Below, piece by piece: positions 1 to 16,614 of a stretch of 64,000 nt of DNA (positions are counted from its first letter, which is position 1; every line of letters starts with the position of its first letter). Source of the stretch: Salinigranum marinum (GTDB lineage: Archaea; Halobacteriota; Halobacteria; Halobacteriales; Haloferacaceae); the NCBI RefSeq assembly GCF_024228675.1, contig NZ_CP100461.1:2601398-2665397 (forward strand), read 5' to 3'. The translations under genes were made by a program, and so were the position numbers. A model generated the notes under the pieces. It worked only from the letters and a program-made list of their open reading frames with translations. It was not told where the DNA came from and made no database searches.

Positions 1-2
1 GA

Positions 3-430: not shown

Positions 431-437
431 AATTAAC
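431..437 (+). promoter_or_regulatory. TATA box of hsdM
   Basis: The AT-rich stretch AATTAAC is centred about 28 nt before the hsdM ATG, the spacing expected for a leaderless haloarchaeal transcript. Confidence 0.5.
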
Positions 438-461
438 GGCATCAGAGAATAGTACCGTAGC

Positions 462-2027
462 ATGACCAACGGAAACCAGCAGACGCTACCCGGGGTCGAC
501 GGGCAGGGCACGCTCGACCTCGACACGCTGGAAAGCCATCTCTGGGAGGCTGCCGATATTCTCCGTGGGAGCATCGACGCGGCGGACTACAAGAACTACA
601 TCTTCGGACTGCTCTTTCTCAAGCGCATCAACGACCGGTTCGACGAGGAGACCGAGGAGATCGCCGAGGAGTACGACATCGACGAGGAAGAGGTCAGGGG
701 CGAACGCGACCTCCACGAGGAGTTCTGGGTGCCCGAACGCGCTCGCTGGAGTCACATCACGTCGCAGACGGACAACATCGGTGAGGCACTGGACAAGGCC
801 CTCATCGCTGTCGAGGACGAGAACGACGCCATCGCCGACCGGGTGCTGTCGACCGTTGACTACAACGACAAGGACCGGCTGAGCGACGCGACGCTCGACG
901 AACTCGTCACGCACTTCGACAAACAGCGCTATCAGAACGTCGACCTCGAAGACCCCGACATCTTCGGCCGGGCCTACGAGTACCTCATCCGGCAGTTCGC
1001 CGACGACGCCGGGAAGAAGGGCGGCGAGTTCTACACGCCCCGCGAGGTCGTCCAACTCCTTGTCGAGTGCGTCGACCCCGAACCCGGACACCGCGTCTAC
1101 GACCCCTGTTGTGGCTCCGGTGGGATGCTCATCTACTCGGCCCAGCACATCCGCGACGAGGGCGGCGACACGGACGACGTCTCGCTCTACGGACAGGAGA
1201 AGAACCTGAATACGTGGGCCATCGGTCAGATGAACGTCCTCCTGCACGAGATGCAGGACGCCAAGATCGAGAAGGGCGACACGATCACCGAACCGAAGTT
1301 CGTCACCGAACACGGCGAACTCGAAGTGTTCGACCGCGTCGTCGCCAACCCGCCGTGGAACCAGAAGAAGTGGAGCAAGGAGTGGGTGCAGGAGAACGAG
1401 CCATACAACCGCTTCCCGTATGGGCTGCCGCCGTCGAACCGTGGTGACTGGACGTGGATTCAGCTCATGCTCGCGTCACTGTCGGAGAAGGGCAAGGCGG
1501 GCATCGTCATGGACAACGGTTTGCTGTTCCGCTCGCGGTCGGAGAAGAAGATCCGCAAGCCGATTCTTGAGGCCGACCTCATCGAGGCCGTCATCGCCCT
1601 ACCCGAGAACCTCTTTTACAACACGTCGTCCCCGGGCTGTATCCTGCTCATGAACAAAGACAAGCCCGAGGAACGCGAAAAGAAGGTCCAGTTCATCTAC
1701 GCCGAAGAGCAGACGCTCCGAGAGTCCGGCGTGCAAATCTACGAGGAACTCTCGAATCAGAACCAACTAACAGAGGAGGGTGTCGATTATCTCGCCGAGA
1801 CACACCTCACTGGACGCGAAGAGGACCACCACAGTCGGCTGGTCGACATGGAGGAGATCAAGGAGAACGACTGGAATCTGAACGTGCCCCGGTATGTCGA
1901 TACAACAGAGCCCGAGGAACCCATCGACGTAAGTGAGAAGCTGCGTGAGTTGGATCGACTAGCCGAAGAGCGCCAGAAGACCGACGAGGAACTTCAGCAG
2001 TACATGGAGGAGTTGGAGTACCGATGA
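462..2027 (+). CDS. hsdM: Type I restriction-modification system, DNA methyltransferase subunit HsdM
   Basis: This is the modification subunit, which transfers a methyl group from S-adenosylmethionine to adenine N6 within the bipartite site chosen by HsdS. The 521-residue protein has the expected two parts: a helical HsdM N-terminal domain (about 20-165) and an N6-adenine methyltransferase fold. The SAM-binding motif DPCCGSGG lies at about 214-221 and the catalytic motif IV NPPW at 296-299. The C-terminal end is charged and helical, as expected for contact with HsdS. The stop overlaps the hsdS start (ATGA at 2024-2027), so the two are translationally coupled. Length and motifs are intact, so the gene looks functional. 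Confidence 0.96.
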   Translation: MTNGNQQTLPGVDGQGTLDLDTLESHLWEAADILRGSIDAADYKNYIFGLLFLKRINDRFDEETEEIAEEYDIDEEEVRGERDLHEEFWVPERARWSHITSQTDNIGEALDKALIAVEDENDAIADRVLSTVDYNDKDRLSDATLDELVTHFDKQRYQNVDLEDPDIFGRAYEYLIRQFADDAGKKGGEFYTPREVVQLLVECVDPEPGHRVYDPCCGSGGMLIYSAQHIRDEGGDTDDVSLYGQEKNLNTWAIGQMNVLLHEMQDAKIEKGDTITEPKFVTEHGELEVFDRVVANPPWNQKKWSKEWVQENEPYNRFPYGLPPSNRGDWTWIQLMLASLSEKGKAGIVMDNGLLFRSRSEKKIRKPILEADLIEAVIALPENLFYNTSSPGCILLMNKDKPEEREKKVQFIYAEEQTLRESGVQIYEELSNQNQLTEEGVDYLAETHLTGREEDHHSRLVDMEEIKENDWNLNVPRYVDTTEPEEPIDVSEKLRELDRLAEERQKTDEELQQYMEELEYR

Positions 2028-3346
2028 GTGAGGCACTGGAGCAATCTGACCTCCGTGAGGGGTACAAAGAGGTCCAGTTGGGACCCAAACCCGCGAAAAT
2101 TCCCTCAGAGTGGACGGTCAGAAAACTCGACGAATTAACGAATAACTCGGGAAACTACGGTGCAAACATCTCTGCTATAGAATACGACCCTGAAAAACCA
2201 CGGTACATCCGAATCACAGACATCGGGGATGACGGTTTTTTAAAAGACGATGATCGAAAATCAATCCCTCGCGATGATGCCGAGGGTTACTATCTGTCTG
2301 CGGGTGACTTACTGTTTGCTCGTACTGGGGCAACTGCAGGCAAAAGCTACCTTTGCAGAGAGGACGGAACAGACGCCGCATATGCTGGCTATCTAATACG
2401 TTTTGAGCTTAATGAGTCGAAGGTTGACACCGATTTCCTGGCTCTATACGTTCAGTCGAAACTGTATCGCGATTGGGTAGACCGAATCACACGTCATGGA
2501 GCACAACAGAACATCAATGCGAGTGAGTACCGTGGTTTTGACATTCTCTATCCCCCGCTCCCCGAACAGCGCCGTATCGCCGATATCCTCTCGACGGTCG
2601 ACGAGCAGATTCAACAGACAGACGAGATCATCGAAGAGACGAAAGATCTGAAACAGGGGCTCATTCAAGACTTGGTTTTCTTCGGGAAGAGCCACAATGG
2701 TACTCAAACTGTCCAGCTCGGTCCCATGACTACCGAGATCGCGGAATCGTGGGACGTATCCACCGTGGGCGAGATCACGACTAAGGCTCAGTATGGGTCC
2801 TCTGAAAGCCTCTCCACGGACGGGACGTACCCAGTCTTCCGCATGAATAACATCGAGGACGGGAAAATGGTCGCTTCCCCGATGAAATATTCTGAGCTGG
2901 ACGACAACCAAGCGGAAAAATACCGCGTCGAGAAGGGCGATATCCTGTTCAATCGGACCAACAGTATCGACCTCGTTGGAAAGTCAGGCATCTTCGACTT
3001 GGATGGAGAGTACGTATTCGCGTCGTACCTCATCCGCCTCCGCACAAACGATCAGATGAATCCATATTTCCTCAATTACTATCTGAACTCCCACATCGGT
3101 CAAGGGATCCTGTTTTCCATTGCAACACGCGGGGCCAGTCAGGCCAATATCAACGCGACGAATCTGAAAGGCGTCAAAGTGCCACTCCCCCCGAGAGAAC
3201 AACAAGACAGGATCGTTGGGCAGATTCAGAAAGTCGAGGAAAAGATTGAGCAAGAACGCGAAACCAAACAGCGGCTTCAAGAACTCAAACGAGGCCTCAT
3301 GCAGGATCTCCTGACTGGCAAGGTCCGTGTCAATACCGCCGACTGA
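2024..3346 (+). CDS. hsdS: Type I restriction-modification system, specificity subunit HsdS
   Basis: This is the DNA-recognition subunit. The 440 residues show the usual duplicated plan. Target recognition domain 1 spans about 30-195 and is followed by a conserved helical spacer that begins PPLPEQRRIA near residue 177. Target recognition domain 2 spans about 235-390 and is followed by a second spacer that begins LPPREQQDRI near 386 and ends GLMQDLLTGKVRV. Both recognition domains are more AT-rich than hsdM and hsdR, as is common for the fast-exchanging part of these systems. The start ATG overlaps the hsdM stop. The target sequence cannot be read from the protein. Confidence 0.95.
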   Translation: MSEALEQSDLREGYKEVQLGPKPAKIPSEWTVRKLDELTNNSGNYGANISAIEYDPEKPRYIRITDIGDDGFLKDDDRKSIPRDDAEGYYLSAGDLLFARTGATAGKSYLCREDGTDAAYAGYLIRFELNESKVDTDFLALYVQSKLYRDWVDRITRHGAQQNINASEYRGFDILYPPLPEQRRIADILSTVDEQIQQTDEIIEETKDLKQGLIQDLVFFGKSHNGTQTVQLGPMTTEIAESWDVSTVGEITTKAQYGSSESLSTDGTYPVFRMNNIEDGKMVASPMKYSELDDNQAEKYRVEKGDILFNRTNSIDLVGKSGIFDLDGEYVFASYLIRLRTNDQMNPYFLNYYLNSHIGQGILFSIATRGASQANINATNLKGVKVPLPPREQQDRIVGQIQKVEEKIEQERETKQRLQELKRGLMQDLLTGKVRVNTAD

Positions 3347-3509
3347 ATCTGCGGGTTCCAACTGGATTATATCTACATTGAATATAGCGTGGATTGTCCG
3401 AACTCTATTCTAACCGAATCGGTTTTAATGTAATCACACCCCGAGCCACCTCCCTCTATTTCTAATTTCTCCGGAGATTTTTTAATTGGATGGCCGCAAC
3501 TGAGCCGTA

Positions 3510-4775
3510 ATGATCGACGGGTACGACCTGCCTGCAAATGCGCCCGGGCAGTACCTCCCGCTTCGTGAGGACCAGTCCCTCCCGAAGGCGTACTTCCCGG
3601 ACAAACTGCCTCCAGCGTTCGACCTCTCCGACGAGGTCGTCCGCGAACACGGACGGGCGATGTGGGCGCTCGGCCGCCTGGAGGGGTTGGGCAGCGAGAT
3701 CGACAACCCCGGCGCGGTGTTCAGTTCGTTCGTCTACAAGGAGGCCGAGCAGTCCTCACGCGTCGAGGGGACGGCCGTCACAGTCTCGGACATCTACCGC
3801 TACGACGTCGGCCAACTGACGTTCCGGGACGCGGCCGAGAGCGACCACGAGGCCGACGTTCGAGAGGCGCGCAACTACATCCGCGCGCTCAACGAGGCGG
3901 TGTCGTATCTGCGCACGGCAGGGTTCGAACGGGAGAGCATCACCAGCGAGCTGGTGAAGTCGCTGCACGAGACGCTGCTCGAACGCGGCCGGAGTGAGGA
4001 CGACGACCCGCTCCCCGGACAGTTCCGTCCCGGCTTCGCCGTCATCGAGGAGGCACACCCCCACGGGTTCGGGACGCGTATCCGGTTCATCCCACCGAAG
4101 CCCGACAGCGTCGAGCGCCTGATGGACGACCTCGAACGCTTCGTACAGGAGGGGAGCACCTGGCCCACGCTGATCGACGTCGCCGTCGCCCACTACCAGT
4201 TCGAGACCGTCCACCCGTTCAAGGACGGGAACGGTCGCGTCGGCCGCATCCTCGCCGTGCTGATGCTCATCGCCGACGGGCTGCTCCACTACCCCCTGCT
4301 CTATCTGAGTTCGTTTATCGAGCGACACCGCACCGAGTACGCCGACCGACTCCTGGCCGTGAGCGAGAAGGGCGAGTGGGACGAGTGGCTGCGCTTCTTC
4401 CTCCGTGGCATCCGCGAACAGGCTGAAGAGGCGTTCGTGCGGGCGAAGCTCCTCATCGACACCCGGCGGACGTACGAGACGAGATACGCCGACGAGCCGA
4501 AGTCGGTGCGGGACCTCGCCCTCGCGTTGTTCGAGGACCCGTATTTCACCGTCCGGGAGGCGAGCGAACGGATCGGCGTCGTCTACCAGACGGCGAACAA
4601 CGCGGTCGACCGCCTCGAAGCCGACGGGGTCGTCTCTGAGATCACGGGCAACGCACAGAATCGCGTGTTCCGAGCCGAAGAGATCATGGACATCGTGGAG
4701 CGCCCCGCGCAGAACCTCCCCGAGCCAGAGGACCTCGTCGACGTCGAGCACGCGTGGAAGCTTCCTGACCACTGA
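3510..4775 (+). CDS. Fic family protein (probable AMP-transferase) inside the RM cluster
   Basis: Fic proteins usually transfer AMP from ATP to a hydroxyl side chain of a target protein. The 421-residue protein has the complete catalytic loop HPFKDGNGRVGR at 235-246, with catalytic His235. It also keeps a class II N-terminal inhibitory motif, S82-x3-E86-G87 (SSRVEG), whose Glu normally blocks ATP binding, so the protein is probably auto-inhibited. A C-terminal winged-helix-like segment (about 340-390) may bind DNA. The gene sits between hsdS (163-bp AT-rich gap) and hsdR (46-bp gap) on the same strand. Fic genes are recurrent passengers of type I RM loci; a role in regulating or guarding restriction is inference. 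Confidence 0.92.
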   Translation: MIDGYDLPANAPGQYLPLREDQSLPKAYFPDKLPPAFDLSDEVVREHGRAMWALGRLEGLGSEIDNPGAVFSSFVYKEAEQSSRVEGTAVTVSDIYRYDVGQLTFRDAAESDHEADVREARNYIRALNEAVSYLRTAGFERESITSELVKSLHETLLERGRSEDDDPLPGQFRPGFAVIEEAHPHGFGTRIRFIPPKPDSVERLMDDLERFVQEGSTWPTLIDVAVAHYQFETVHPFKDGNGRVGRILAVLMLIADGLLHYPLLYLSSFIERHRTEYADRLLAVSEKGEWDEWLRFFLRGIREQAEEAFVRAKLLIDTRRTYETRYADEPKSVRDLALALFEDPYFTVREASERIGVVYQTANNAVDRLEADGVVSEITGNAQNRVFRAEEIMDIVERPAQNLPEPEDLVDVEHAWKLPDH

Positions 4776-4821
4776 AATAGCAACTACCTTGATACGTCCC
4801 CCTGTCGAACGGCCATAACAG

Positions 4822-7794
4822 ATGCCGGACGAGTACGCCGAGTCCGAACGCCCCGCCCTCGATACCCTCCAGTGGCTCGGCTGGGAGGTCGTCGACCAGC
4901 AGCGGACCACCTGGCACGACCCCCGCGAAACCGTATCCTCGGCCGTACTCGAACCCCGCCTTCGCGACGCTGTCGAACGACTGAACCCGTGGATCGACGA
5001 GAACAACCTGAACAAGGCCGTCCGCGAGATCCAGCAGCTCGCCGGAACGAGCACGATGGACGAGAACGAACAGATCCACGAGAAGCTCGTTCGTCACACG
5101 GACGTCAAACAAGATCTGGGCCACGGCCTGAAACACCAGACGGTCAGGTACATCGACTACGAGAACCCCGAGAACAACGACTTCTTCGCGCTCAATCAGT
5201 TCCGCGTCGAGGGACCGATAGAGACCGTCAAACCCGACATCGTCCTGTTCGTCAACGGAATCCCGCTCGGCGTCGTCGAGTGCAAAGCGCCGACCATTGC
5301 CGAGCCGCGAAGCGAGGCGCTCGAACAGCTACAACGCTATCAGAACGAACGCACTGAGACCGGGAAGGAGGGGGCCGAAGAACTGTTCCGGTACAACCAG
5401 TTCTCCGTGGCGGCGTGGTACGAGGGCGCGGTGATGGGCACCTACGGAACGCCGAAGGGCCAGTACAAGCCGTGGCGTGACACCTACCCCGTCGACGACG
5501 ACTATCTCGCCGACCGGTTCGGCGTCGACTACGTCTCCCCACAACTGCGGATGCTGTACGCCTTGTTCGAGCCCGAGCGGCTACTCGACCAACTGCGCCA
5601 CTTCACGGTCTTCGACACGAACCAGAGCGGGACGGCGAAGCTCGTGGCCCGCTATCAGCAGTACCGCGCCGTCGAGAAGGCACTCAAGCGAATCGAACGC
5701 CGCAGTCAGCGAGAGGCACAGGGCGGCGTCGTCTGGCACACCCAGGGTTCGGGAAAGTCGTTGACGATGCTCTTTCTCGGATTGAAACTCCGCCGTGCGA
5801 AACCCGACCCAAAGCTGGTACTTGTCACCGACCGTACCGCGCTCGACGACCAGATACACGCCACGTTCGAGCGCTGTGGGTTCCCGAACCCGAAGAAGGC
5901 CGAAGACATCGACGACCTGCGCGAGAAGCTCAGCACAAACGCGGGCGAGACAATCACCACACTCATCCAGAAGTTCCAGCTCCACGACGACGAAGAGGGC
6001 GACTTCCCGGTGCTCTCCCGCGACGACGACATCTACGTGATGGTCGACGAGGCTCACCGAACCCAGTACAAGAAGCTCGCGAACAATATGCGGACGGCAC
6101 TGCCGAACGCTTACTACGTCGGCTTCACCGGGACGCCTATCGAGAAAGACGAGAAGAACACACGCCGGACCTTCGGGAACTACATCGATACGTACACCAT
6201 CGACCAGTCGCTCGAAGACGACACTACCGTCGAGATTCTCTATCAGGGTCGACTCGCCGACATCCACCTCGAAGGGCGGAATCTCGACCGCATCTTCGAC
6301 CGGGTGTTCGACGACAGGACGGACGAGGAGAAGGCCGAAATCCAGAAGCGGTACGCCCAGGAGCGCGATCTCGCCGAGGCCGAGTCGCGTATCGAGGAGG
6401 TGGCGCTCGACATCGTCGACCACTTCGAGAACGAGATCGCTCGCCCGTTCAAGGGGATAGTCGTCACGACCAGCAAGCGGGCTGCGATTCGGTACAAGAA
6501 CAAGCTCGACGACCTGCACGGCCCAGAGTCCCGAGTCGTCATTTCACCGGGCCACAACGATCCCGAAGCGGTCAAAAGCTGGGTTCCGACCGACACCGAG
6601 AAGTCGAAGTACAAAGAGGAGTTCGTCGACCCGAACGGACAGGTCGAGTTACTGATCGTGTGCGACATGCTGCTGACCGGCTTCGACGCCCCAGTCGCGC
6701 AGGTGATGTACCTCGACAAACCCCTCCGCGAGCACAACCTCCTGCAGGCTATCGCGCGTGTCAACCGGCCCTTCCCCGAGAAGAACCACGGGCTCATCGT
6801 CGACTACTACGGCATCTCCGACGACCTGAAACAGGCACTGGCGATGTTCAGCGACGACGACGTCAAGCACGCGATGGTGCCGCTGTCGGACAAGAAGCCC
6901 GAACTCGAAGCCGCCAATCGAAAAGCCGTCTCGTTCTTCGACGACCTCGACGACATGGAGGCGTGTCTCCAGACGCTCGAACCGGAGGACGTCCGTATTG
7001 AGTTCAAGAACGCGTACAAGCGCTTCTCGAAGCTGATGGACATCGTGCTGCCCGACCCGATGGCGAACCCCTACAAGGACGACCTCGACCGGCTCAGTGA
7101 GATCTACGCCCGAGCAAAGCAGCGCTACCGGGACGACTCGATGAACCTAGAGGGCTGCGGCGAAAAGGTACGTGAACTCATCCAGAAACACATTCGGTCG
7201 AAGGGCATCGACGTACTCAACGACGAGCCCGTATCCATCATGGACGAAGGCGGGTTCGGTGCGGAGATTGAAGGCCTAGAAAGCGACGAATCACGGGCGA
7301 GTGAGATGCAGCACGCACTGAAGCACGAGATTTCGGTTCGTTTCGACGAAGACCCCGTCCAGTACGGTTCGCTCAAGGAGCGCGTCGAGAAGCTCATCGA
7401 GAAGTACAAGCAGAAGCGCCTAACCGACCGTGAGATCATCGAGGAACTCAAGAAGGTACTCGACGAGATGCGCTCTCGCGACCAGTTGGCCCACTCTAAG
7501 GGGCTCGCCGACGCGACCGAACTCTCGTTCTACCACGCACTTGAGGACGTCCTCGACTCGGAGGACCAGCCGGTCGACCAGAAGACGCTGGTCGAACTCA
7601 CGGGCGACATCGTCGCAGAGGTCGAAGACGTGGCTACCGTCGTCGAGTGGCAGGAGAAGGTCACCCTCCAGCAGAAGCTCCGCAAGAAGGTGACACTCCG
7701 GCTCATCAAGTCGGACATCGAGATGACGGCCGACGAGCGAAAGGCGCTCACGACCCGTATCGTCGAACTGGCCCGCACCCACTACAAGCCATGA
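4822..7794 (+). CDS. hsdR: Type I restriction-modification system, endonuclease/translocase subunit HsdR
   Basis: This is the motor-nuclease subunit that translocates and cuts unmethylated DNA. The 990-residue protein has an N-terminal PD-(D/E)xK nuclease domain (Asp139 in KPDIVLF, then E153-C-K155). A superfamily 2 helicase core follows, with Walker A GSGKS at 309-313, DEAH at 409-412 and the FTGTP motif soon after. The late helicase motif is LLTGFDAP ... QAIARVNRP. A long helical C-terminus (about 740-990) should bind the methylase core. All catalytic motifs are present. The stop overlaps the ATG of the next gene (7791), so the metallopeptidase is co-translated. Confidence 0.96.
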   Translation: MPDEYAESERPALDTLQWLGWEVVDQQRTTWHDPRETVSSAVLEPRLRDAVERLNPWIDENNLNKAVREIQQLAGTSTMDENEQIHEKLVRHTDVKQDLGHGLKHQTVRYIDYENPENNDFFALNQFRVEGPIETVKPDIVLFVNGIPLGVVECKAPTIAEPRSEALEQLQRYQNERTETGKEGAEELFRYNQFSVAAWYEGAVMGTYGTPKGQYKPWRDTYPVDDDYLADRFGVDYVSPQLRMLYALFEPERLLDQLRHFTVFDTNQSGTAKLVARYQQYRAVEKALKRIERRSQREAQGGVVWHTQGSGKSLTMLFLGLKLRRAKPDPKLVLVTDRTALDDQIHATFERCGFPNPKKAEDIDDLREKLSTNAGETITTLIQKFQLHDDEEGDFPVLSRDDDIYVMVDEAHRTQYKKLANNMRTALPNAYYVGFTGTPIEKDEKNTRRTFGNYIDTYTIDQSLEDDTTVEILYQGRLADIHLEGRNLDRIFDRVFDDRTDEEKAEIQKRYAQERDLAEAESRIEEVALDIVDHFENEIARPFKGIVVTTSKRAAIRYKNKLDDLHGPESRVVISPGHNDPEAVKSWVPTDTEKSKYKEEFVDPNGQVELLIVCDMLLTGFDAPVAQVMYLDKPLREHNLLQAIARVNRPFPEKNHGLIVDYYGISDDLKQALAMFSDDDVKHAMVPLSDKKPELEAANRKAVSFFDDLDDMEACLQTLEPEDVRIEFKNAYKRFSKLMDIVLPDPMANPYKDDLDRLSEIYARAKQRYRDDSMNLEGCGEKVRELIQKHIRSKGIDVLNDEPVSIMDEGGFGAEIEGLESDESRASEMQHALKHEISVRFDEDPVQYGSLKERVEKLIEKYKQKRLTDREIIEELKKVLDEMRSRDQLAHSKGLADATELSFYHALEDVLDSEDQPVDQKTLVELTGDIVAEVEDVATVVEWQEKVTLQQKLRKKVTLRLIKSDIEMTADERKALTTRIVELARTHYKP

Positions 7795-8507
7795 ACGAGT
7801 ACCATATCGGTCAGACGGTCGTCCCCTACGAGGTCGAGTGGAGTCGAGAGCGGACCACCATCGGGCTGTCGATGGATCACTCGATGGAACTCACGATCAG
7901 GGCCCCGTACTCGGCGACTACCGAGGACATCGACCAAGTACTCGACGACAAGAAAGAGTGGATCCTGAAGACGCTGTATGGGCTCTCCGAGCAGCAGGAC
8001 CCACCACTCGACAAGGAGTTTCTGAGTGGCGAGAAACTGCTCTACAACGGACGAAGGCACCGGATTCGCGTGGAGGAAGGCGAGTGTTCCGAGCCCACCT
8101 TACGGTTCGACGACACCCAGTTCCTGCTCTCGGTGCCCGACACTGGTGATGTCAGCATCAGACGAAAGCGCCAGGTTGTCGTCGACTGGTACTACGAAAC
8201 TGCAGATCGGGAACTCCCCGACCGTGCCGACGACTACATCGCGAAACTCGGATTGGAGGACGTCGAGATCGACGTTCGTGAACTCCCCAGCCGGTGGGGA
8301 GAGTACCGCTCTGGTGGCGTTGTCCTCAACTGGCGGTTGATCCTCGCACCTCGGAAGATCCAGGATTACGTGGTTGCGCACGAACTCGCTCACTTCAAAC
8401 ATGGCGATCACTCGGACTCGTTTTGGAACACGGTCGGGACGCTGATTCCGGATTACCGGGAACGTCGGGAATGGCTGCGAGTCAACGGAAGCACGCTCAC
8501 AGTTTGA
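7791..8507 (+). CDS. YgjP/SprT-like zinc metallopeptidase (DUF45 type) of the RM operon
   Basis: The 238-residue protein carries HELAH at 197-201 followed by KHGDHSDSFW. This is the signature of the YgjP/DUF45 metallopeptidase family, in which His197, His201 and probably His207 bind zinc and Glu198 is the catalytic base. The start is set at ATG 7791, which overlaps the hsdR stop and gives the normal family N-terminus; a longer reading from 7647 would lie within hsdR. Members of this family are often the last gene of type I RM operons. The substrate is unknown, and turnover of the RM complex is only a hypothesis. Confidence 0.9.
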   Translation: MNEYHIGQTVVPYEVEWSRERTTIGLSMDHSMELTIRAPYSATTEDIDQVLDDKKEWILKTLYGLSEQQDPPLDKEFLSGEKLLYNGRRHRIRVEEGECSEPTLRFDDTQFLLSVPDTGDVSIRRKRQVVVDWYYETADRELPDRADDYIAKLGLEDVEIDVRELPSRWGEYRSGGVVLNWRLILAPRKIQDYVVAHELAHFKHGDHSDSFWNTVGTLIPDYRERREWLRVNGSTLTV

Positions 8508-8737
8508 AGACGATTTAATGATCGGCTGCGAGGCCGATGGGTGTATTACAAGGGGCCTCGACTGACCGAGGCGCTTGACCTGTCGCTGCGGTACGCTGTC
8601 CTTCATCTATCACAGGCTGTCCACTGTAAACTTCCAGAACCTGTGAGAGCTGATCACCAACTGGTGATTGGGTGCTGTGAGTGGTCGTCCGTGCGCCCCG
8701 CCTCAGTGTTTTTGCTATCGAATGCCAACACAGCGCC

Positions 8738-9721
8738 ATGACGTTCAGGCTGACGTGGCACAACCTCCTCAACGAACTGGAGGCGCTGCCCTCAGATACG
8801 ACGTTTGTGACGCCGCTCTCACGCACACCCTTCCGCATCACCGGGGTGCAGGAACACCGCGTGTTGATCAAGTACCGTGAGTCCAGTGAGACGATCCCGC
8901 TCCAGCGTGAGCAGTTCGAGACGCTATCCGAGCGTGTCGTGGAGGCCGTCGGCGGCTTCGACCTCAACCGCCTCCCAACTGACGCCGAGCCGTATGCGAC
9001 TATCCTGAGCGTCCATCCCCAATTCGACGTCGACGACCATGAGGGGACGCTCGCGGCCACCGACATCGGGACGGCGACCTCGCTCGTCGACGTTGACCAG
9101 GACGTCGGCGATGACCGAGACGAACCCGACCTCGCCGTCTACGGCGACGCCCTCCTGTTGATCGACGCGCTCGAACGGCACGATCCGACCGCACTGGATG
9201 AGATGGAGACGCCCGACCTGGTGAACCTCTACACCCTGCTTTCGGACGTCCAGCGCAACGCCAACGATCTCCGCCAAGACGTACGACGGGTCTTGCTCGG
9301 ACGCCTGCATCACGACCAACCGGTTCACGGGCAGTACGGCTCCGTCCAGCGGACCACTCGCAGGAGTCGGACACTCAAACCCGACGACGAGGTCCTGGGA
9401 CTGCTCGAAGCCGAAGGGATCGACCGCGAGCGCGTCCTGAGCGTCGACCGGAACAAAGTCGATGATGCCCTCGATGTGACCAGTCTCACCGAAACCGACG
9501 TCTACGATATCGAGGAGAGTGAGTACGTTCGGAAGGCAGACGTCGACGAGGAGGTCAAGGAGACACGGCTGCAGGGATTGAAAGATCGACTGGCCACCGC
9601 CGACGAAAACGGTACGGAAGACCTCCAGCGGGAGATCGAGGAGTTAGAAGCCCGGATCGACGAACTCACAAGCTTCAGCTCCGGGAAGTCTCTCCGCAGC
9701 CCTTCGAGCGGCGAGTCGTAA
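8738..9721 (+). CDS. Hypothetical protein with C-terminal coiled coil
   Basis: I do not recognise this 327-residue acidic protein. ATG 8738 is preferred because the in-frame extension upstream (from 8681) is not acidic. Residues 1-60 look like a small beta-rich domain (TPFRITGVQEHRVLIKY). The middle is acidic and helical (about 130-200). The last 60 residues, with QGLKDRLATADE then LQREIEELEARIDELTS, form a likely coiled coil. The gene lies on the same strand as the RM operon, 230 bp downstream, and 171 bp before a recombinase. It could be a further defence-island component or recombinase cargo; no function is assigned. Confidence 0.7.
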   Translation: MTFRLTWHNLLNELEALPSDTTFVTPLSRTPFRITGVQEHRVLIKYRESSETIPLQREQFETLSERVVEAVGGFDLNRLPTDAEPYATILSVHPQFDVDDHEGTLAATDIGTATSLVDVDQDVGDDRDEPDLAVYGDALLLIDALERHDPTALDEMETPDLVNLYTLLSDVQRNANDLRQDVRRVLLGRLHHDQPVHGQYGSVQRTTRRSRTLKPDDEVLGLLEAEGIDRERVLSVDRNKVDDALDVTSLTETDVYDIEESEYVRKADVDEEVKETRLQGLKDRLATADENGTEDLQREIEELEARIDELTSFSSGKSLRSPSSGES

Positions 9722-9813
9722 ACCCGGAGTCAGACACCGTCGGGCAATTTTCGCCAGCATACGGTGTCATACGACAAGAACTGCCGAACGGCCCTGTCCG
9801 TGGCACGTACCAC

Positions 9814-9921
9814 CGAACTTTGCATTCTCTCTGTAGAGTCCAAAGTTCGAAGGTACTGCGGCCTGTTCTGTTTATAAAGAGGCCATCTCCGAATGCCCGA
9901 AAATGCAAACTCCAAAGTTCG
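9814..9921. repeat. Three copies of CAAAGTTCG around the recombinase promoter
   Basis: CGAACTTTG (9814-9822) and CAAAGTTCG (9841-9849) form a perfect 9-bp inverted repeat with an 18-bp spacer. A third copy in the second orientation lies at 9913-9921, inside the first codons of the recombinase gene; the longer match TCCAAAGTTCGA is shared by copies two and three. The TATA box at 9871 lies between copies two and three, so these are candidate binding sites of the recombinase or an autoregulator. Confidence 0.6.
9871..9878 (+). promoter_or_regulatory. TATA box of the recombinase gene
   Basis: TTTATAAA is a near-ideal archaeal TATA element about 18-20 nt before the ATG at 9893. Transcription would begin at or just after this ATG; a near-leaderless mRNA is likely. 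Confidence 0.6.
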
Positions 9922-10510
9922 AGCGAAAGTGTGGCTGACGCCCGACCAGGTCGACACGCTCCGCACCGCGTGCTACGAGACTGGTGCGTCGTACCTCCAG
10001 CAGCGAAACGAGGCGGTCATCGCGCTCACCTACGACACCGGCCTCCGGGTCGGTGAACTCATCGACATTGACGTCGAGATGCTACGGGAGGGAAACAGCG
10101 AGCTATACCTGCCCGGGCACATCCAGAAGGACTACCCGAACGACAACAGCCCAGGACCGGTGACGATGGAACTATCGACCGATGTGACCCGGCTCCTCTC
10201 GTCGTACCTGAACAGTCGGTGGAAAGAGTCGCCCGCATTGTTCCCGGCTCGGTCGTCCGACCGGATTACCACACAGGGTGTCCGTAATATGCTGCACAAG
10301 GTCGCGGAGACGGCGGGCCTCCGTCCCTATCTCGTCGATGGATCACGCGGCGACGCGGAGGACGTGACACCACACGCACTCCGTCACAGCGTCGCCTACC
10401 GGATGATGAACGATGAGGACGGGAACACGTTATACGACGTTCGTAACCGCTTACGCCATCGCTCGATTCAGACGACCGAACGGATCTACGACCACCTGAT
10501 CAAGGTATAA
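9893..10510 (+). CDS. Minimal tyrosine recombinase (XerC/D-like integrase)
   Basis: The 205-residue protein is little more than a tyrosine recombinase catalytic domain. Visible active-site residues are Arg52 (TGLRVGEL), His161 and Arg164 (HALRHS), His189 (LRHRS) and the nucleophile Tyr199 (ERIYDHL) six residues from the end. The usual N-terminal SAM-like core-binding domain is essentially missing; only about 20 residues precede the catalytic fold. Such short recombinases are frequent in haloarchaeal mobile regions. CAAAGTTCG repeats overlap its promoter and start codon. It may act on nearby inverted sites (inversion or resolution) rather than integrate a large element; this is inference. Confidence 0.88.
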   Translation: MPENANSKVRAKVWLTPDQVDTLRTACYETGASYLQQRNEAVIALTYDTGLRVGELIDIDVEMLREGNSELYLPGHIQKDYPNDNSPGPVTMELSTDVTRLLSSYLNSRWKESPALFPARSSDRITTQGVRNMLHKVAETAGLRPYLVDGSRGDAEDVTPHALRHSVAYRMMNDEDGNTLYDVRNRLRHRSIQTTERIYDHLIKV

Positions 10511-10614
10511 CCACGAGATCGGACGTCGGCAGCCGGCAGTAGACGTCTGAGTATGCTCGAACTAATTATTTCCAGCCAAGTGGACATATGTTCCATCCAC
10601 TCGTACATCGATGT

Positions 10615-11136
10615 ATGCCCGACGACACCCAGAACAACAACCCTGGCCACGCTTCGATGACGCGTGGCGAGCGGATTCGTGCTGCTGCACGGACGCTTCG
10701 GACTCCCCGCACCGCGTCGTGGGTCGCGACGGAAACAGGCGTGTCCGTCAAGACAGCGCAAAAGTACCTCAACCAGCTCGTCGAGGACAACGTTCTGCGA
10801 AAGGTCACACAGGGCGATCAAACGCTCTATTGCATCGATCAGCTCATGGCGGCCTATCGCGAGGTCGCAACACTCCAGCGGGAACACAGTCGTGAGGAAC
10901 TGACGACTGCTCTCGAATCGATGCGCACCAAAATCACCGACTGGAAACAGTCGTACGACGTCGAGACCCCGGGCGAGCTTCGAGCCGGTATTGCAGACGT
11001 CGACGATGCCAACGAGATCGAGATGCGACGCGAAATTGCCAGCGAGTGGGAGCACCTCGCTGACCGCGTCCCGGTTGTTCGGGCTGCACTCAACGAGTAC
11101 GATTGGGCGACCGAACGGGACACCATCTCGACGTAA
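10615..11136 (+). CDS. Winged-helix regulator, DUF7342-like
   Basis: The 173-residue protein has an N-terminal winged helix (about 15-75) containing TASWVATETGVSVKTAQKYL, followed by a helical C-terminal region (about 80-173) rich in Glu and Arg. This matches the haloarchaeal family I know as DUF7342. ATG 10615 is chosen; an upstream in-frame ATG at 10588 would add a non-acidic leader. A TATA-like AATTATT at about 10563-10569 would give a short leader. These genes are common in accessory regions and often accompany toxin-like partners; here the nearest neighbour is a convergent PIN toxin gene. Target DNA unknown. Confidence 0.75.
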   Translation: MPDDTQNNNPGHASMTRGERIRAAARTLRTPRTASWVATETGVSVKTAQKYLNQLVEDNVLRKVTQGDQTLYCIDQLMAAYREVATLQREHSREELTTALESMRTKITDWKQSYDVETPGELRAGIADVDDANEIEMRREIASEWEHLADRVPVVRAALNEYDWATERDTIST

Positions 11137-11245
11137 TCGGATGGGGCTTTCAGGAACAACCGACAGCTCGGTCTACGCAGGGCTCGGAAACGTCCTCAAA
11201 CAGCACCCCGCTATTCGTCAGTCGGATACGAGCCGGATAGCATCG

Positions 11246-11674
11246 TTAACAGGACCTGTCGCGAATCAGGCTCAAGAACTCTGCGGGCTCCACGATTTTG
11301 ATACCGCGGAATGGATTCTCGTCGAGGAGATGATCGTTACCAGAAACGATGTAGTCTGCGCCAGCTGCGAGCGCACACTCAAGAAAGACGTCATCGTCAG
11401 GGTCGTCTTCAATTACCTCGACAGAGACTTCTGGATTGATAACTTTAGCCCCGGTGAGCCGGATGAGTTCGTCTGGAAGCGTCCGTTGCTCTTCTTCATC
11501 GAAGGGCAGGCGGTCATAAGTGAGGACTCTTCGAAACTCGTCAAGAGCATCCTCAGAGATAACCATCTGAACGTCTCCCATAACTGCCAAGTCTATGCAT
11601 TCTTTGGGTTTTCCACCAAAGCCGAGACCAGAAATGAGGACGTTGGTGTCAAAGACTACTGCGATCTGGCCCAT
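11246..11674 (-). CDS. PIN-domain toxin (VapC-like, COG1569 type)
   Basis: PIN domains are metal-dependent RNases and usually the toxins of type II toxin-antitoxin systems. The 142-residue protein begins VVFDTNVLISGL, giving the first catalytic Asp. Further acidic residues are in DALDEF, DDPDDDVFLECA and AADYIVSGNDHLL, the normal PIN order. The gene is on the minus strand and overlaps the end of its upstream partner (11656-11988) by 19 nt, the classical tight coupling of antitoxin then toxin. The composition matches stand-alone COG1569 PIN toxins of haloarchaea. Confidence 0.88.
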   Translation of the reverse strand: MGQIAVVFDTNVLISGLGFGGKPKECIDLAVMGDVQMVISEDALDEFRRVLTYDRLPFDEEEQRTLPDELIRLTGAKVINPEVSVEVIEDDPDDDVFLECALAAGADYIVSGNDHLLDENPFRGIKIVEPAEFLSLIRDRSC

Positions 11675-11988
11675 TCTATCGCGTCATCGACGTCGTCCTC
11701 GGTCACGTCCGATTCGTCGAATTTGCGTTGGACCGATGCAGACAGTTTGTCCCATTCCTCTTTGCGTGCTGCAGCCTCCTTGCTACGGTCTTCCTCGCCG
11801 TCATCCCTTCTGGAAATGATAAGGAGGAGGAGGAGAATAAGCCCACACACGACCTCCGAGGCTCCGTCACCAATCTTCCGGAAGCCCTCGGTAATCTCGC
11901 GCTTCCCCTCTGAGAAGCCCGAGCTCGGCGACACCTCTTCCGGTGTCCACGGACTGTCTTCAGGGGGATTTGACGCGCTGGAACTCAT
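11656..11988 (-). CDS. Probable antitoxin partner of the PIN toxin, with a hydrophobic segment
   Basis: The 110-residue protein ends with a helical acidic tail (VQRKFDESDVTEDDVDDAIE) of the kind seen in haloarchaeal antitoxins that precede COG1569 PIN toxins. The gene overlaps the toxin gene by 19 nt. Unusually, about residues 45-61 (EVVCGLILLLLLIISRR) form a strongly hydrophobic stretch flanked by Arg, which looks like a single membrane-spanning helix. No AbrB, CopG or Phd DNA-binding domain is obvious in the N-terminus. Either the antitoxin is membrane-anchored, or the usual N-terminal domain has been replaced. The pairing is seen in the sequence; the antitoxin role is inference. Confidence 0.65.
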   Translation of the reverse strand: MSSSASNPPEDSPWTPEEVSPSSGFSEGKREITEGFRKIGDGASEVVCGLILLLLLIISRRDDGEEDRSKEAAARKEEWDKLSASVQRKFDESDVTEDDVDDAIEWARSQ

Positions 11989-12266
11989 TGCAATTCGCTC
12001 AGCCGAAGATTGCCGTCGTGGATAGATAAATTGTGGTGGTGTCGCTCATCGGAGCCCGAAGTGCTGCTTCTCACTGTTTCAACCCTCCAAGTGCTGCTGA
12101 CGTGCTACACTACTTGCTCACGAACCAATCGAACGATATTCAATTGACGAGTCATTCCCCACCTGTCCACGGCGGCTTGAAGCACTAGACTACTGTTGTA
12201 GCCGTGTATCACCGGGAAAACGGTCCAAAGTACTATTACAACTTGGTGGTATTACTTAGTTATAAC

Positions 12267-12953
12267 ATGGCGACTTGCCAGGGAGATATCCCGATTACGA
12301 CGAAAGTCGACGAGTCGACGCGAGTCCTTATCGACGAACTGGCCGAAGCCGAAGATACGAGTCGGGCTGAAGTCCTCCGACGATTCCTCGAACTGTACCA
12401 CCAGTCGGAAGACGGGAATTTGGAGTGTCCCTCATGCATGCAAGCAGTGCGTATTCGGGCTGATGAGGTGGATCTGGCCGCCGATACACCAGATAAATCG
12501 CCAGCTACGGATAAAACCGGAACGACCGACGAGATCGAGACGGGGCCCAATACGTTCCCCGAGAGACGGAACGCCAACGTCGATACCTCTTCGACCGATT
12601 TTCAATCGCAGGTAGCCGAACTTGAATCGGTCATCGAGAAGCACCAGCAGAAACTCGACTTCCTACGACGAAAAATGACTGCACAAGAGAGGGAAATCGC
12701 TGACCTTGCACAGTCGAGTGCGTCCACCGAACGTATCGACAGCCTCGAAAGGGAGATTGAATGGATCAGTAACGAAATGAGGGGCGTAATTCCTCGCGTC
12801 GAGGCACTCACTGCGGTATCCGACCTCGAAAACGAAGGTATGTGCCCGAGATGTGGTACCGAACTTACGACCAGTGAGCCGCATGTCGATATGGAAAAAC
12901 CAGCCGATATCGGATGTTCGGAATGTGGATTGACTGTCGGACGTAAATCGTGA
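12267..12953 (+). CDS. Ribbon-helix-helix protein with coiled coil and C-terminal zinc ribbon
   Basis: The 228-residue protein starts at ATG 12267 (MATCQGDIPITTKVDESTR); the AT-rich bases before it (TTACTTAGTTATAAC) hold the promoter, which argues against the longer reading from 12204. Residues 8-50 look like a ribbon-helix-helix DNA-binding fold (ITTKVDESTR ... AEVLRRFLELY). CPSC at about 59-62 hints at a first metal site. A coiled coil spans about 115-185. The C-terminus holds a zinc ribbon, CPRC then CSEC. It is probably a dimeric DNA-binding protein of the island. No partner gene is adjacent on the same strand. Confidence 0.75.
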   Translation: MATCQGDIPITTKVDESTRVLIDELAEAEDTSRAEVLRRFLELYHQSEDGNLECPSCMQAVRIRADEVDLAADTPDKSPATDKTGTTDEIETGPNTFPERRNANVDTSSTDFQSQVAELESVIEKHQQKLDFLRRKMTAQEREIADLAQSSASTERIDSLEREIEWISNEMRGVIPRVEALTAVSDLENEGMCPRCGTELTTSEPHVDMEKPADIGCSECGLTVGRKS

Positions 12954-13220
12954 ATTCGGAATGTTGCTGCTCATAGGGATTAGCGGAAGAACTCATACAC
13001 TCGGACACGTGCTATCTGGTATCTGTTAGAAGGACTGTGCGAGATACACAGCGCGAATCGGTCGCTATCGCTATGGCCATCCGTTGAGCGGATGTTGGGT
13101 TCGTCGGCCCGAGATCTGTCGCGGTCTATCTCCCTCTCCGTTCGGTCATTCTCGGCCGAAGTAGTGGCCGCCCGGTGCCAGTTCGTGAAGGCCAACCGGT
13201 CGTCTGCTGTCGGTCGGTCC

Positions 13221-13790
13221 TTAGTCTGCTTCGACCGCCTCGCTCAGCCGCTCCTCAACGAACGCGGCGAACTCACCGGCAAACGACACGACCGATTCCC
13301 AGTCGGTGAGCTCGGCGTCTCCTGACTCGTCCGTCTCAAATTCTTGATTCCTCACGATGAATTTCAGCAACGCTCGCTTGAGAAAACCGTACTCTGAGAA
13401 GCGTAGCGCGCCGCCGAAGAGGGCGATTCTGTCGGGCTGCCAGTTCGTGTCGTCGATAAACTTGTCGAGATATCCTGTCGCCTCCGCGAGGCCCTCGTCG
13501 TTCTTCGCCCCGGACGCACCGGAGACTTGAAAGAACCCGTTCGGCGTTCGCACCAGCACGTCGCGGTTCATTTTAACCCACTTCCTCACCGACTTCTGTT
13601 GTCTTCCATAGTGGACCGACGCACCGATCAAGACAGCGTCGAACTCGTCGAGATCGAGTTCGGAATCGATCTCCGCGACGTTTACCGTCGTTGCCTCGTG
13701 GCCACGGGCTCTGAATTCCTCCGTGATGCTGTCGGCTATCTTTTCGGTCTGTCCCTCGCCGGTTCCGAACACAGTAAGGATGTGGGCCAT
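13221..13790 (-). CDS. Flavodoxin-domain protein (menaquinone-dependent protoporphyrinogen oxidase-like)
   Basis: The protein has 189 residues from ATG 13790 (MAHILTVFGTGEGQTEKIAD). The TGEGQT loop is the FMN phosphate-binding site of flavodoxins, and IGASVHYGRQQ is the second flavin loop typical of the HemG/COG4635 group. HemG-type enzymes oxidise protoporphyrinogen IX using FMN and quinone; many haloarchaeal homologues are only annotated as flavodoxin-domain proteins, so the exact reaction is uncertain. The longer reading from 13817 adds nine residues unlike the family. It stands alone between convergent and divergent neighbours, with 295 bp of noncoding DNA upstream. Confidence 0.85.
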   Translation of the reverse strand: MAHILTVFGTGEGQTEKIADSITEEFRARGHEATTVNVAEIDSELDLDEFDAVLIGASVHYGRQQKSVRKWVKMNRDVLVRTPNGFFQVSGASGAKNDEGLAEATGYLDKFIDDTNWQPDRIALFGGALRFSEYGFLKRALLKFIVRNQEFETDESGDAELTDWESVVSFAGEFAAFVEERLSEAVEAD

Positions 13791-14085
13791 GCATGTAGTA
13801 ACGTCGACAACAGTCAAATACTAGCTGCAGCCTCTCGTGGGCGAACACCCTGTCACTGACGCTCTCCGTTGGGCTACTATTCTGATCTTCACGGATCAGA
13901 GCTCCACAGTGAATCCCATTGCCCACTTCGGCCTCTGTATCTCCTAGGCCGCTACTGGAGGAACGCTCGAAGAGTCGCTACCGGGAATAGACTCGACGGG
14001 ACGAGGGTCCGTAGGAGGAAGGCCACATCCAGCCAGCGAACAGCACGTACGGAATGGTTACGACCGCTGGAGCACTATTGAACCG

Positions 14086-14664
14086 ATGAGCCGATTTTCG
14101 AACGAACATCAGTCGATGGTACCAGGTGATCCCTCAGAATACGATTCAGTCGGATATCCAAGCACAGTCGAGGATCTATCGACGGGAGCACGTATCACGT
14201 TCCTCGAACGCGGTGTCGATGAACAGGGGGCGTACTTGATGATGGACGGCGTTCTCCCGCCGGGAGTAGACAGTGGGCCCGCCCGTCTGCACCCACGGTC
14301 GGAGGCACGCTCGGAGGTGATGGCGGGTCGGGCCGACGTGACGGTTCGCGGTGACTCCCACGTCCTGCTTCCCGGCGAATCGCTGACCATCGCCCCCGGA
14401 GAAGCCCACAGCATCCGTAACCGCGGCGACGACACCCTCGTCGTTCGGACGACCCTCCGCCCGCCCGGCGAGTTCGAAGCCGCAACTCGGGCGCTCTACG
14501 AGGCCGGGGCAGGGGGCCGACCGGATCTATTCGCGGTGTCCGCAGTCCTCTCTCATTACCGTTCGGACGTGCGTCTCGCAGCCGTTCCGTGGGTGGTTCA
14601 GCGACCGCTCTTGCGTGCGCTCGCCGGCATTGCAGCGATGCTCGGTCGAAATCCACTCAGGTAG
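14086..14664 (+). CDS. Cupin-domain protein
   Basis: The protein has 192 residues. The beta-barrel cupin region spans about 25-125; motif 1 is represented by RLHPRSEARSEVMAG and motif 2 by PGEAHSIRNRGDD, giving potential metal-binding His and Glu. The C-terminal third (about 140-192) contains two moderately hydrophobic helices (FAVSAVLSHYR; LLRALAGIAAMLG). Proteins of this type are annotated only as cupins; substrate unknown. It starts at ATG 14086, with no strong TATA box visible. Confidence 0.8.
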   Translation: MSRFSNEHQSMVPGDPSEYDSVGYPSTVEDLSTGARITFLERGVDEQGAYLMMDGVLPPGVDSGPARLHPRSEARSEVMAGRADVTVRGDSHVLLPGESLTIAPGEAHSIRNRGDDTLVVRTTLRPPGEFEAATRALYEAGAGGRPDLFAVSAVLSHYRSDVRLAAVPWVVQRPLLRALAGIAAMLGRNPLR

Positions 14665-14836
14665 TCCACTCCCCTGTCGCGGCCAATTAGGAGTGACACA
14701 GTCTCTGGCTGATCGTCGAGTACGGTGACGAGCGTATCCTGCACCGTCCGCATGGATGAAGACAGTCTGACTGGCGGATGAGAAACCTTCGACACGGCTA
14801 TCTTCTCAGATGGCTATTATAAAATCAGCGATAAAA

Positions 14837-15571
14837 ATGGCGTCGTCTACTAACCAAGCAGTCGAGAGTATCGAACGGCCGACCGGTGTGAGTCGGTGGA
14901 ACTACCTGCGTATCGGTGGACTGGCCGCGCTCACCGAAGCGGCCATCTACGTGGCCGGTATCGCGTACTTCCTCGTCATCCTCGATTTCGCGAGCGTCAC
15001 CGGGGCGCTCCAACAGGTCGAACTGTTCGTCGCGAACGAGACGAGTCTGTACGCGATGAACCTACTCATCTACGTGGTCTTCGGTATCGTACTGGTGGCG
15101 CTCGTTCTGGCGCTCCACGAGCATCTCAAAGCCTACGCACCGATGCTGATGCGCGCGACGACCGCGTTCGGGCTCATCTGGGCCGGCCTCGTCATCGCCA
15201 GCGGGATGATTGCCACCCTCGCGACGGGCGTCGTCGTTGACCTCTACAGTACCGACCCGACGCAGGCGACCACGGTCTGGCTGGCAGTCAGTCCGGTCAT
15301 CGACGGGATGGGCGGCGGTAACGAGATCATCGGCGGGCTCTGGACGCTACTCGTGAGTGTGGTGGCGCTGCGAGCGCGGGCGCTCCACCGACTGGTGAAC
15401 TACTTCGGGCTCGTGGTCGGGACTGCAGGTATCATCTCGGCGATTCCAGCACTCGGTGAGATCGGCGGGGGCATCTTCGGGCTTACCCAAATCGTCTGGT
15501 TCGTCGCTCTCGGCGTCCTCCTGTTAGGCGCGGGACGCCGTGAGGCGTCCGCATACCTTCGTGAGGAGTGA
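14837..15571 (+). CDS. Multi-spanning membrane protein, DUF4386-like
   Basis: The protein has 244 residues with about six membrane segments, for instance GLAALTEAAIYVAGIAYFLV, LLIYVVFGIVLVALVLAL, AFGLIWAGLVIASGMIATLA, LWTLLVSVVAL, YFGLVVGTAGIISAIPAL and IVWFVALGVLLLGAG. This layout and the conserved small-residue helices match DUF4386-type integral membrane proteins of unknown function. An AT-rich TATA-like stretch (TATTATAAAA, 14814-14823) lies between a first possible ATG at 14810 and the one at 14837; the second is preferred because the first overlaps the promoter. Confidence 0.75.
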   Translation: MASSTNQAVESIERPTGVSRWNYLRIGGLAALTEAAIYVAGIAYFLVILDFASVTGALQQVELFVANETSLYAMNLLIYVVFGIVLVALVLALHEHLKAYAPMLMRATTAFGLIWAGLVIASGMIATLATGVVVDLYSTDPTQATTVWLAVSPVIDGMGGGNEIIGGLWTLLVSVVALRARALHRLVNYFGLVVGTAGIISAIPALGEIGGGIFGLTQIVWFVALGVLLLGAGRREASAYLREE

Positions 15572-15715
15572 GTCGACCGATTGTGGTGTGAGACCAACAC
15601 GGACGAGGCACTGAATACATACTCTATATTCAACACGGCTCCGACAAACTATCAACAACCGAGGATTTCAACAAGGCCGACTAGGGTTATAGACGCGCAG
15701 GGTCTTTGGTGATCC

Positions 15716-16300
15716 ATGGACCCACTATTCTTCGACTCTCGTAACGAGTTCCGCACCTGGTTGGAAGGGCACCACGACACGAAAAAAGAGCTGTGGGTAG
15801 GCTACTACAAGGCCGACGCCGAGAGATCTGGTATCGGGTACGGAGAGTCGGTCGAGGAAGCGCTCTGCTTCGGATGGATCGACGGTCTGGTCAAGGGCAT
15901 CGACGACGAGACGTACACCCGTCGGTTTACGCCCAGAAGCTCCGACAGCAAGTGGTCGAAGGCGAACAAGGGGCGGGTCGCAGCGATGACCAAGGAGGGG
16001 AAGATGACCCTGGCCGGAATGGAACTCGTCGACGCGGCGAAGGAGTCGGGCGAGTGGGCGGCTGCCTATCGGCTCGGCGACGATCACGAAATTCCGGCCG
16101 AACTTGAGGCGGCGCTGCGTGAGAACGAGACCGCTTGGGAGAACTTCCAGGACTGCTCGAACACGGACCAGCACGCATTCATCGCGGCCGTTGAGGAGGC
16201 TAAGACGGACGAGACCAAGCAAAAGCGCATCAAACGAACGGTCGAACTCGCGGCGCAGGATCTCCGAGCATACGACGAGAACAACAAGCGGCGGCTGTGA
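15716..16300 (+). CDS. YdeI/OmpD-associated family protein
   Basis: The 194-residue protein begins FFDSRNEFRTWLEGHHDTKKELWVGYYK and continues GYGESVEEALCFGWIDGLVKGIDD, then YTRRFTPRSSDSKWSKAN, the characteristic signature of the YdeI/OmdA family (bacteriocin-protection-like). The C-terminal half (about 110-194) is the helical OmdA region. The family's biochemical role is not established. The protein has bacterial-type affiliation and lies alone in the island, consistent with lateral transfer (inference). Confidence 0.88.
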   Translation: MDPLFFDSRNEFRTWLEGHHDTKKELWVGYYKADAERSGIGYGESVEEALCFGWIDGLVKGIDDETYTRRFTPRSSDSKWSKANKGRVAAMTKEGKMTLAGMELVDAAKESGEWAAAYRLGDDHEIPAELEAALRENETAWENFQDCSNTDQHAFIAAVEEAKTDETKQKRIKRTVELAAQDLRAYDENNKRRL

Positions 16301-16461
16301 TGTGGCCGTTTCAGAGGTAACAGTTCTCAAGAAAACTCGCTTCTCGAGTTCCTTCTCGTCACCATCGCGGACGAAGTCACGGCATTGCTCATCGAGAATG
16401 TTCGTGCAGTATGCGCCCTGTAGTGACCGCTCTGCTCTGTCTCTTCAAGCCCCCAATTATC

Positions 16462-16478
16462 AATATAATTATATTTAA
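16462..16478 (+). promoter_or_regulatory. TATA-rich promoter of the interrupted SnoaL-like gene
   Basis: A run of A and T (16462-16478, including TATAATTATATTTA) precedes two in-frame ATGs at 16494 and 16515. Spacing fits a leaderless start at 16494 or a short leader to 16515. Confidence 0.5.
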
Positions 16479-16614
16479 GCCCTCAGGAGACCTATGAGAC
16501 TGTGGACCAACACCATGAGTAATAACGAAAACAACGAGACGAGCGCCCGACGACTATTCGAGGAAGTCTGGCAGAACCACAACTACGAGACGACCGACGA
16601 ACTCGTAGCCAAGG

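Follow-up and report, generated by a model that had tools for sequence, protein, structure and literature searches.

The closest described relatives of the protein studied here are hypothetical proteins of the haloarchaeal plasmids pNRC100, pHS4, pNG500 and pR1SE2, which belong to the same family (95% of the query at 58-62% identity), have no function on record and lie in gene surroundings unlike those of the window gene. The family is already present in PHROGs and RefSeq, with its function unassigned there, and PHROG 35116, itself a family with no assigned function, matches our protein over its full length (residues 1-317 against profile positions 1-322 of 326, E 3.1e-124). Some plasmid members (4 of 60 among the matches listed, 59-66% identical) carry the name 'DUF2800 domain-containing', a label that depends on PF10926, and the members scored here (not those four) fall below the cut-off of that profile. 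Phage Mu Gam, a host nuclease inhibitor, has a similar local pattern over 27 columns, which is not significant, and the protein described here differs from it in additionally having an N-terminal beta-domain and C-terminal helices. Among the literature matches listed there is no publication title on the family, and no recorded function was found.

We analysed a stretch of 64,000 nucleotides from the haloarchaeon Salinigranum marinum (hereafter the window), in which the gene extends on the forward strand from an ATG at 8738 to a stop at 9721 and encodes 327 residues. Genes were called with a simple script, some frames of which are false, and the longest version of this frame starts from a GTG at 8681 (346 aa); the N-termini of homologues coincide with the residue of the ATG at 8738, not with the GTG. 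Because homologues begin at this ATG and dN/dS is 0.08-0.25 across 10 chosen homologue pairs (silent sites being near saturation in the two pairs that include the window gene), the frame is, as judged by these comparisons, a genuine gene under purifying selection, in keeping with the 327-residue protein proposed in a preliminary description of the window. The same description had found no known domain, which holds for Pfam and NCBIfam (no family reaches its cut-off) and for the PADLOC defence models (none match at E up to 0.1), but not for PHROG 35116. A profile search of PDB sequences returned a best E of 0.18. The gene, its parts and its surroundings are as follows:

1..22000, no strand: low-GC island containing the gene (GC 0.54-0.63 vs 0.64-0.74), left end not delimited
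462-2027: hsdM, type I restriction, neighbour
2024-3346: hsdS, type I restriction, neighbour
3510-4775: Fic gene, between hsdS and hsdR
4822-7794: hsdR, type I restriction, neighbour
8738..9721, + strand: gene of the 327-residue protein, PHROG 35116 family (frame, profile match, homologue starts, dN/dS)
8738..9067, + strand: predicted N-terminal domain, residues 1-110, with a helix, a four-strand small beta-domain and helices (AlphaFold2 model)
9128..9316, + strand: predicted middle helical stretch, residues 131-193 (model)
9326..9535, + strand: residues 197-266, predicted arginine-rich strand, helices and second strand, weakly Gam/DUF2800-like (alignment and model)
9548..9676, + strand: predicted C-terminal coiled-coil-like helices, residues 271-313 (alignment and model)
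9893-10510, + strand: tyrosine recombinase, on the same strand as the family gene and 171 bp downstream of it

Searches place the family, so far, solely in haloarchaea: it is found in 60 of 116 genomes drawn from the class Halobacteria and in 27 of 294 genomes of a phylum-wide sample, all 27 belonging to the window's own family or order. Relatives are carried by 68 plasmid records, of which 64 cover at least 80% of the query, and the ten genera named among the plasmid matches are all haloarchaeal. Although the family matches PHROG 35116, phage records contain zero relatives and two short patterns found none in IMG/VR, a scan that distant relatives could escape; these two results rule against a viral gene. 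In 20 multi-contig genomes, 12 full-length main-subfamily copies reside on secondary contigs (10.1 Mb) and 14 on main contigs (64.2 Mb), that is, 12 of 26 copies sit on the ~13.6% of the DNA formed by secondary replicons, at 5.5 times the main-contig density (binomial P 5.9e-5), as tallied by hand in genomes selected for having the family, with totals rounded except for those of G000, and with partial matches and the second subfamily (see below) dropped. Main contigs were marked by Orc1 matches (among the matches listed), and Orc1 was used in this tally for marking solely. The genome loci considered below number 79 and were taken from the best 80 of 235 relatives, so they are biased to close relatives. 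Several family copies read with internal stops, and since these may reflect reading past the gene's own stop, no pseudogene count is given.

The S. marinum genome contains four copies of the family spread over three contigs, the other three being full or nearly full and 70% (on C3), 62% (on C1) and 40% (on C2) identical to the window copy. In a tree of 93 rows haloarchaeal families are intermixed, and the window copy groups with three Halohasta rows (support 98/86), its exact position being unsure because its row bears a long end branch. The three S. marinum copies in the main subfamily were rejected as one clade (p-AU 0.018), and the tree favours the view that they probably arrived separately. 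The 40%-identical kind constitutes a second subfamily, whose 16 rows form one branch (100/100); besides the C2 copy of this genome, these rows stem from two haloarchaeal families, of which the larger is probably Natrialbaceae. Of the 17 loci of this kind examined, 10 contain a methylmalonyl-CoA mutase cluster, 8 a dnaJ cluster and 5 a dnaK cluster (cluster names taken from one member each). This part of the family thus has a fixed chromosomal place, which argues against a role of the family in plasmids only. Housekeeping surroundings, which the preliminary description had regarded as counting against a defence or mobility factor, are thus present for the second subfamily (dnaK/dnaJ, methylmalonyl-CoA mutase) and not for the main one. 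Synteny on the chromosome, close to dnaK/dnaJ and methylmalonyl-CoA mutase, is conserved in many of the second-subfamily loci L176-L191.

The window gene stands within a genomic island, because GC is 0.54-0.63 from 1 to ~22 kb and 0.64-0.74 beyond 24 kb. Its placement between a restriction operon and a recombinase is as first described: hsdM, hsdS, the Fic gene and hsdR come before it and the tyrosine recombinase after it. Also supported are the undescribed state of the family and its carriage by mobile elements. The Fic gene (3510-4775) encodes a SoFic-like Fic adenylyltransferase inside the type I restriction operon, and a small neighbour protein with a HELAH motif, read by eye, has no NCBIfam match below E 0.08. 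One 271-aa frame, transposase-like by eye, is present at 16827-17642 and at L008:10140-10955, within ~7 kb of both chromosomal family-gene copies. The DNA upstream of the tyrosine recombinase contains, at 9807-9856, a palindrome whose 22-nt arms are 82% complementary and separated by a 6-nt gap. A similar palindrome, AACTTTGGAGTCT/AGACTCCAAAGTT or a variant, is located directly upstream of a TATA-like box in 6 of 8 homologues of the recombinase that are 71-79% identical (L315, L316, L317, L319, L320 and L321), the two without a clear one being L318, where the contig end cuts the region, and L322, which has a weak one. The palindrome at 9807-9856 may be an operator or a recombination site.

Flanks (up to 8 kb in genome loci) were surveyed at the 81 loci where the family gene had been called, and no partner gene is constant there. 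When nine families of genes were examined for proximity to the family gene (de-duplicated, with this genome's own loci excluded and a radius of 3 kb), TRAM proteins were within 3 kb in 12 of 13 cases (5.9 expected, P 0.0003), Orc1/Cdc6 marginally so in 9 of 12 (5.9 expected, P 0.06) and pRiA4-ORF3 in 5 of 6 (P 0.07); ParA (4 of 6, 2.5 expected, P 0.22) was not significant, and ArdC-like genes gave 4 of 8 (P 0.49). Of 83 loci, 12 have Orc1 in their flanks, and with this frequency and its marginal pull it was rejected as a constant partner. Those neighbours that do recur, namely TRAM, Orc1/Cdc6, ParA and pRiA4-ORF3 proteins, are encoded by plasmid genes. In scans of neighbours that cover the 25 commonest families, the nearest neighbours (150 of 151 proteins) included pRiA4-ORF3 (9), Cdc6 (4), ParA-like proteins (3) and N6_Mtase (3), and Cdc6 and ParA were absent from the 25 commonest families of the farthest neighbours (127), one-member families being partly covered. 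Of 18 plasmid records, chosen by hand and read without a null, 7 have ParA within 5 kb, 4 have Orc1/Cdc6 (3 annotated, 1 near-identical to a confirmed Cdc6) and 4 have a restriction or DNA-methylase gene at that distance, counts that are lower bounds because a record end shortens the flank in five records; pHS4 and pNRC100 appear near-duplicate around the family gene. On several plasmids, genes resembling PadR- and ArsR-type regulators are found nearby. A gene for DUF790 and one for a DEAD/DEAH helicase, which we take to be a Bax1-XPB-like pair, recur ~5 kb or less from the family gene on a number of plasmids and beside one copy of this genome (L008:535-3319, where the pair is identified by eye, L012:9463-12208, L413 and L421).

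Haloarchaeal orc/cdc6 origins typically have repeats with G-rich ends. In three loci the family gene stands opposite a divergent orc1/cdc6 across a repeat-bearing, origin-like region, whose 21-30-nt repeats lie in either orientation and terminate in G-rich runs:

L018:7250-8000: origin-like region, divergent orc1/cdc6 to family gene
L023: origin-like region, divergent orc1/cdc6 to family gene
L026:7300-8000: origin-like region, divergent orc1/cdc6 to family gene

Origins adjacent to orc/cdc6 occur in haloarchaea, and the layout of these three loci recalls them (PMC3528665). Iterons beside the gene were considered and rejected: of 70 stretches upstream, 4 had a 9-mer in at least 4 copies, and of 66 downstream, 1 did; 9-mer copies exceeded nearly all shuffles in 4 upstream and 4 downstream stretches. 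A palindrome with a variable interior, TTAACCAAC-N20-27-GTTGGTTAA (for example, at L018:7898-7939), precedes the family gene by ~100-130 bp in 11 genome loci and 3 plasmid loci, and sometimes lies downstream too. This genome has it at 4 other places, 74 IMG/VR stretches contain it, and it is absent at the window gene; on account of this dispersal and absence it was rejected as the family's own site. It may perhaps serve as operator for a regulator that haloarchaeal plasmids and viruses share, and no haloarchaeal title occurred among the literature matches listed for its 9-mer. The flanking stretches yielded no conserved operator or binding site belonging to the family itself.

To the protein itself, the AlphaFold2 model built from 71 sequences assigns a mean pLDDT of 70 and a pTM of 0.36, values that leave the overall fold uncertain; residues 1-110, the small beta-domain, reach pLDDT 77-90. 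Strands are modelled between residues 22 and 56, at 204-213 and at 256-265, with helices between the N-terminal domain and the latter two, and C-terminal helices at 271-287 and 290-311; a separate model of residues 124-315 agrees (pLDDT 74, pTM 0.37). The N-terminal small beta-domain and the C-terminal coiled coil anticipated from the letters thus have counterparts in the model, the latter as coiled-coil-like helices. Foldseek searches of PDB and BFVD gave no match at E up to 0.001, and the N-terminal domain had only weak Tudor/PWWP/Hfq-like matches. With VIA-align the best Z was 5.1 for the whole model (3bjo, 79 residues, rmsd 3.6) and 7.2 for the C-terminal part (6v7m_A, 60 residues, rmsd 4.1, helices only), a level reached by models without a clear match; the C-terminal rows shown contain no Gam structure, which rules nothing out. 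The protein is acidic overall (mean acidic fraction 0.24, basic 0.10), positions R205, R208, R211 and K214 are basic in at least 90% of rows of the 93-row alignment, and the eight most basic 18-residue segments all begin at 192-199 (best net +5.2). Because the modelled strand 204-213 is inside this most basic stretch, it is a natural candidate for DNA contact, and from the conserved arginines we infer that the protein is probably a nucleic-acid binder, as had been suggested. Profile searches detected no recognised DNA-binding domain in the window protein or in family members. Two smaller alignments comprised 70 of the 79 genome loci (A2) and 64 loci (A3), each with the window protein.

By eye, residues 197-266 resemble phage Gam, which was itself picked by eye, and the C-terminus of DUF2800 proteins. 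DUF2800 (PF10926) is matched by 36 of 71 members at E ≤1 (best 0.002), within the residues of the 197-266 part in the two members inspected, and the window protein is unmatched at E up to 10. The 21-bit cut-off was not reached: 2 of 10 members matched, at 13.6 and 12.4 bits, and two further members, found in a genome scan, reached 20 and 19.2 bits. These four matches span only profile columns 242-327 of 368, DUF2800 being unmatched outside this C-terminal segment. Comparison with Gam (PF07352) by hhalign gave a probability of 0.9-1.6% (P 0.03-0.06), and 27 aligned columns scored 19.8, against 17.7 for the best of 60 column-shuffled profiles and 13.9 for the reversed one. The fold comparison with Gam involves a low-confidence model (pTM 0.37) and structure searches without a significant match. 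Relatives of Streptococcus phage Gp157 (8 loci, 92-100% identical) were too alike for a useful profile. The resemblance is weak and membership in Gam/DUF2800 is unproven, and we do not assign the protein there.

We tentatively favour the reading that the protein is a DNA-binding accessory of plasmid upkeep that reaches chromosomes with plasmid-derived islands, although we would not rate it above an even chance. DNA would be contacted by the arginine-rich strand in the C-terminal half, subunits would dimerise through the terminal helices, and the N-terminal small beta-domain may bind nucleic acid or a partner; upkeep would consist of the replication, partition or protection of plasmid DNA, and the window copy would be cargo brought into the chromosome by a plasmid-like island. 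In favour of this reading are the plasmid records together with the lack of relatives in phage records and in the IMG/VR pattern scan, the density on secondary contigs, the tree of this genome's copies, the nearness of TRAM and Orc1/Cdc6, the ParA and Orc1/Cdc6 genes of the plasmid records, the three origin-like loci and the basic stretch. The data show the gene, its family, the plasmid enrichment, a tree favouring separate arrivals and no detected restriction linkage; DNA binding, dimer formation and the upkeep role are inferred. The 14 of 26 counted copies that lie on main chromosomes and the chromosomal synteny of the second subfamily argue that the role is not confined to plasmids. Plasmid upkeep itself is weakened by the lack of a constant partner, the non-significant closeness of ParA and the marginal closeness of Orc1, as well as by the unsure tree position of the window row, the fold searches without a significant match and the failure to find a binding site of the family's own.

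We weighed four alternatives, in the order regulator or chromatin protein, Gam-like protector, defence factor and recombinase helper. A transcription regulator or small chromatin protein, chromosomal in one lineage and on plasmids in others, would accommodate the conserved synteny and fully supported single branch of the second subfamily, the basic strand and the PadR- and ArsR-like genes on several plasmids, but neither a recognised DNA-binding domain nor a conserved operator of the family's own was found, and we consider this reading rather unlikely, if worth keeping in mind. The modelled succession of strand, helices and second strand after a long helix, the weak DUF2800 matches of about half the members and a profile score exceeding 60 of 60 shuffled Gam profiles would fit a Gam-like or DUF2800-like binder of DNA ends or single strands that protects plasmid DNA; the low hhalign probability, the lack of a DUF2800 match for the window protein, the sub-threshold scores of the members seen, the low-confidence C-terminal model and the choice of Gam by eye make it distinctly unlikely. 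A fuller version, in which a Gam/DUF2800-like DNA-binding part, a Tudor-like domain and a coiled coil would together shield plasmids from host nucleases, with one lineage tamed chromosomally, strikes us as improbable.

The position after hsdMS-fic-hsdR suggested that the protein assists or regulates the type I restriction system next to it, or else is a defence factor of a new kind, as the preliminary description had it. In Natribaculum breve (L016), HsdM- and HsdS-like genes lie at distances of ~2 and 3.5 kb, and the 4 plasmid records with a restriction or DNA-methylase gene within 5 kb (of 18) point the same way. Restriction subunits were nevertheless not clustered around the family gene in the closeness test (HsdM, HsdS and HsdR with 2, 3 and 2 genes after de-duplication; P 0.24, 0.85 and 1.0), which has little power because it involves 7 restriction genes in all. 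N6_Mtase accounts for 3 of 150 nearest neighbours, 124 PADLOC families were matched by the nearest and 213 by the farthest neighbours, so that the nearest are no richer in defence models, PADLOC does not match the protein itself, and no restriction operon was seen by eye in the frames around this genome's three other copies. The PADLOC search, the family scans and the closeness test together rule against a defence gene as the leading idea, and we hold this reading to be very improbable. A mobility factor serving the tyrosine recombinase would explain the position directly upstream on the same strand with a gap of 171 bp, and recombinase-like genes are within 3 kb in 8 of 12 cases (5.2 expected, P 0.095); in G008 a 52%-identical recombinase is ~2.5 kb from a family gene. 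However, the recombinase is not a constant partner: close homologues of the recombinase (71-79%) in G009, G068, G080 and G095 are on another contig or >100 kb from the family gene, a more distant one in G006 is ~25 kb away, and a TATA-like box and a palindrome of its own precede the recombinase. We regard this as the least probable of all the readings.

For the window the outcome is mainly a correction, in that the gene resembles cargo of a plasmid-like island and its membership in the restriction system is unsupported. The family to which it belongs is present in about half of the sampled haloarchaeal genomes and on the well-studied plasmids pNRC100, pHS4 and pR1SE2, and if its members are indeed plasmid upkeep factors, they would offer a handle on the persistence and movement of archaeal plasmids.
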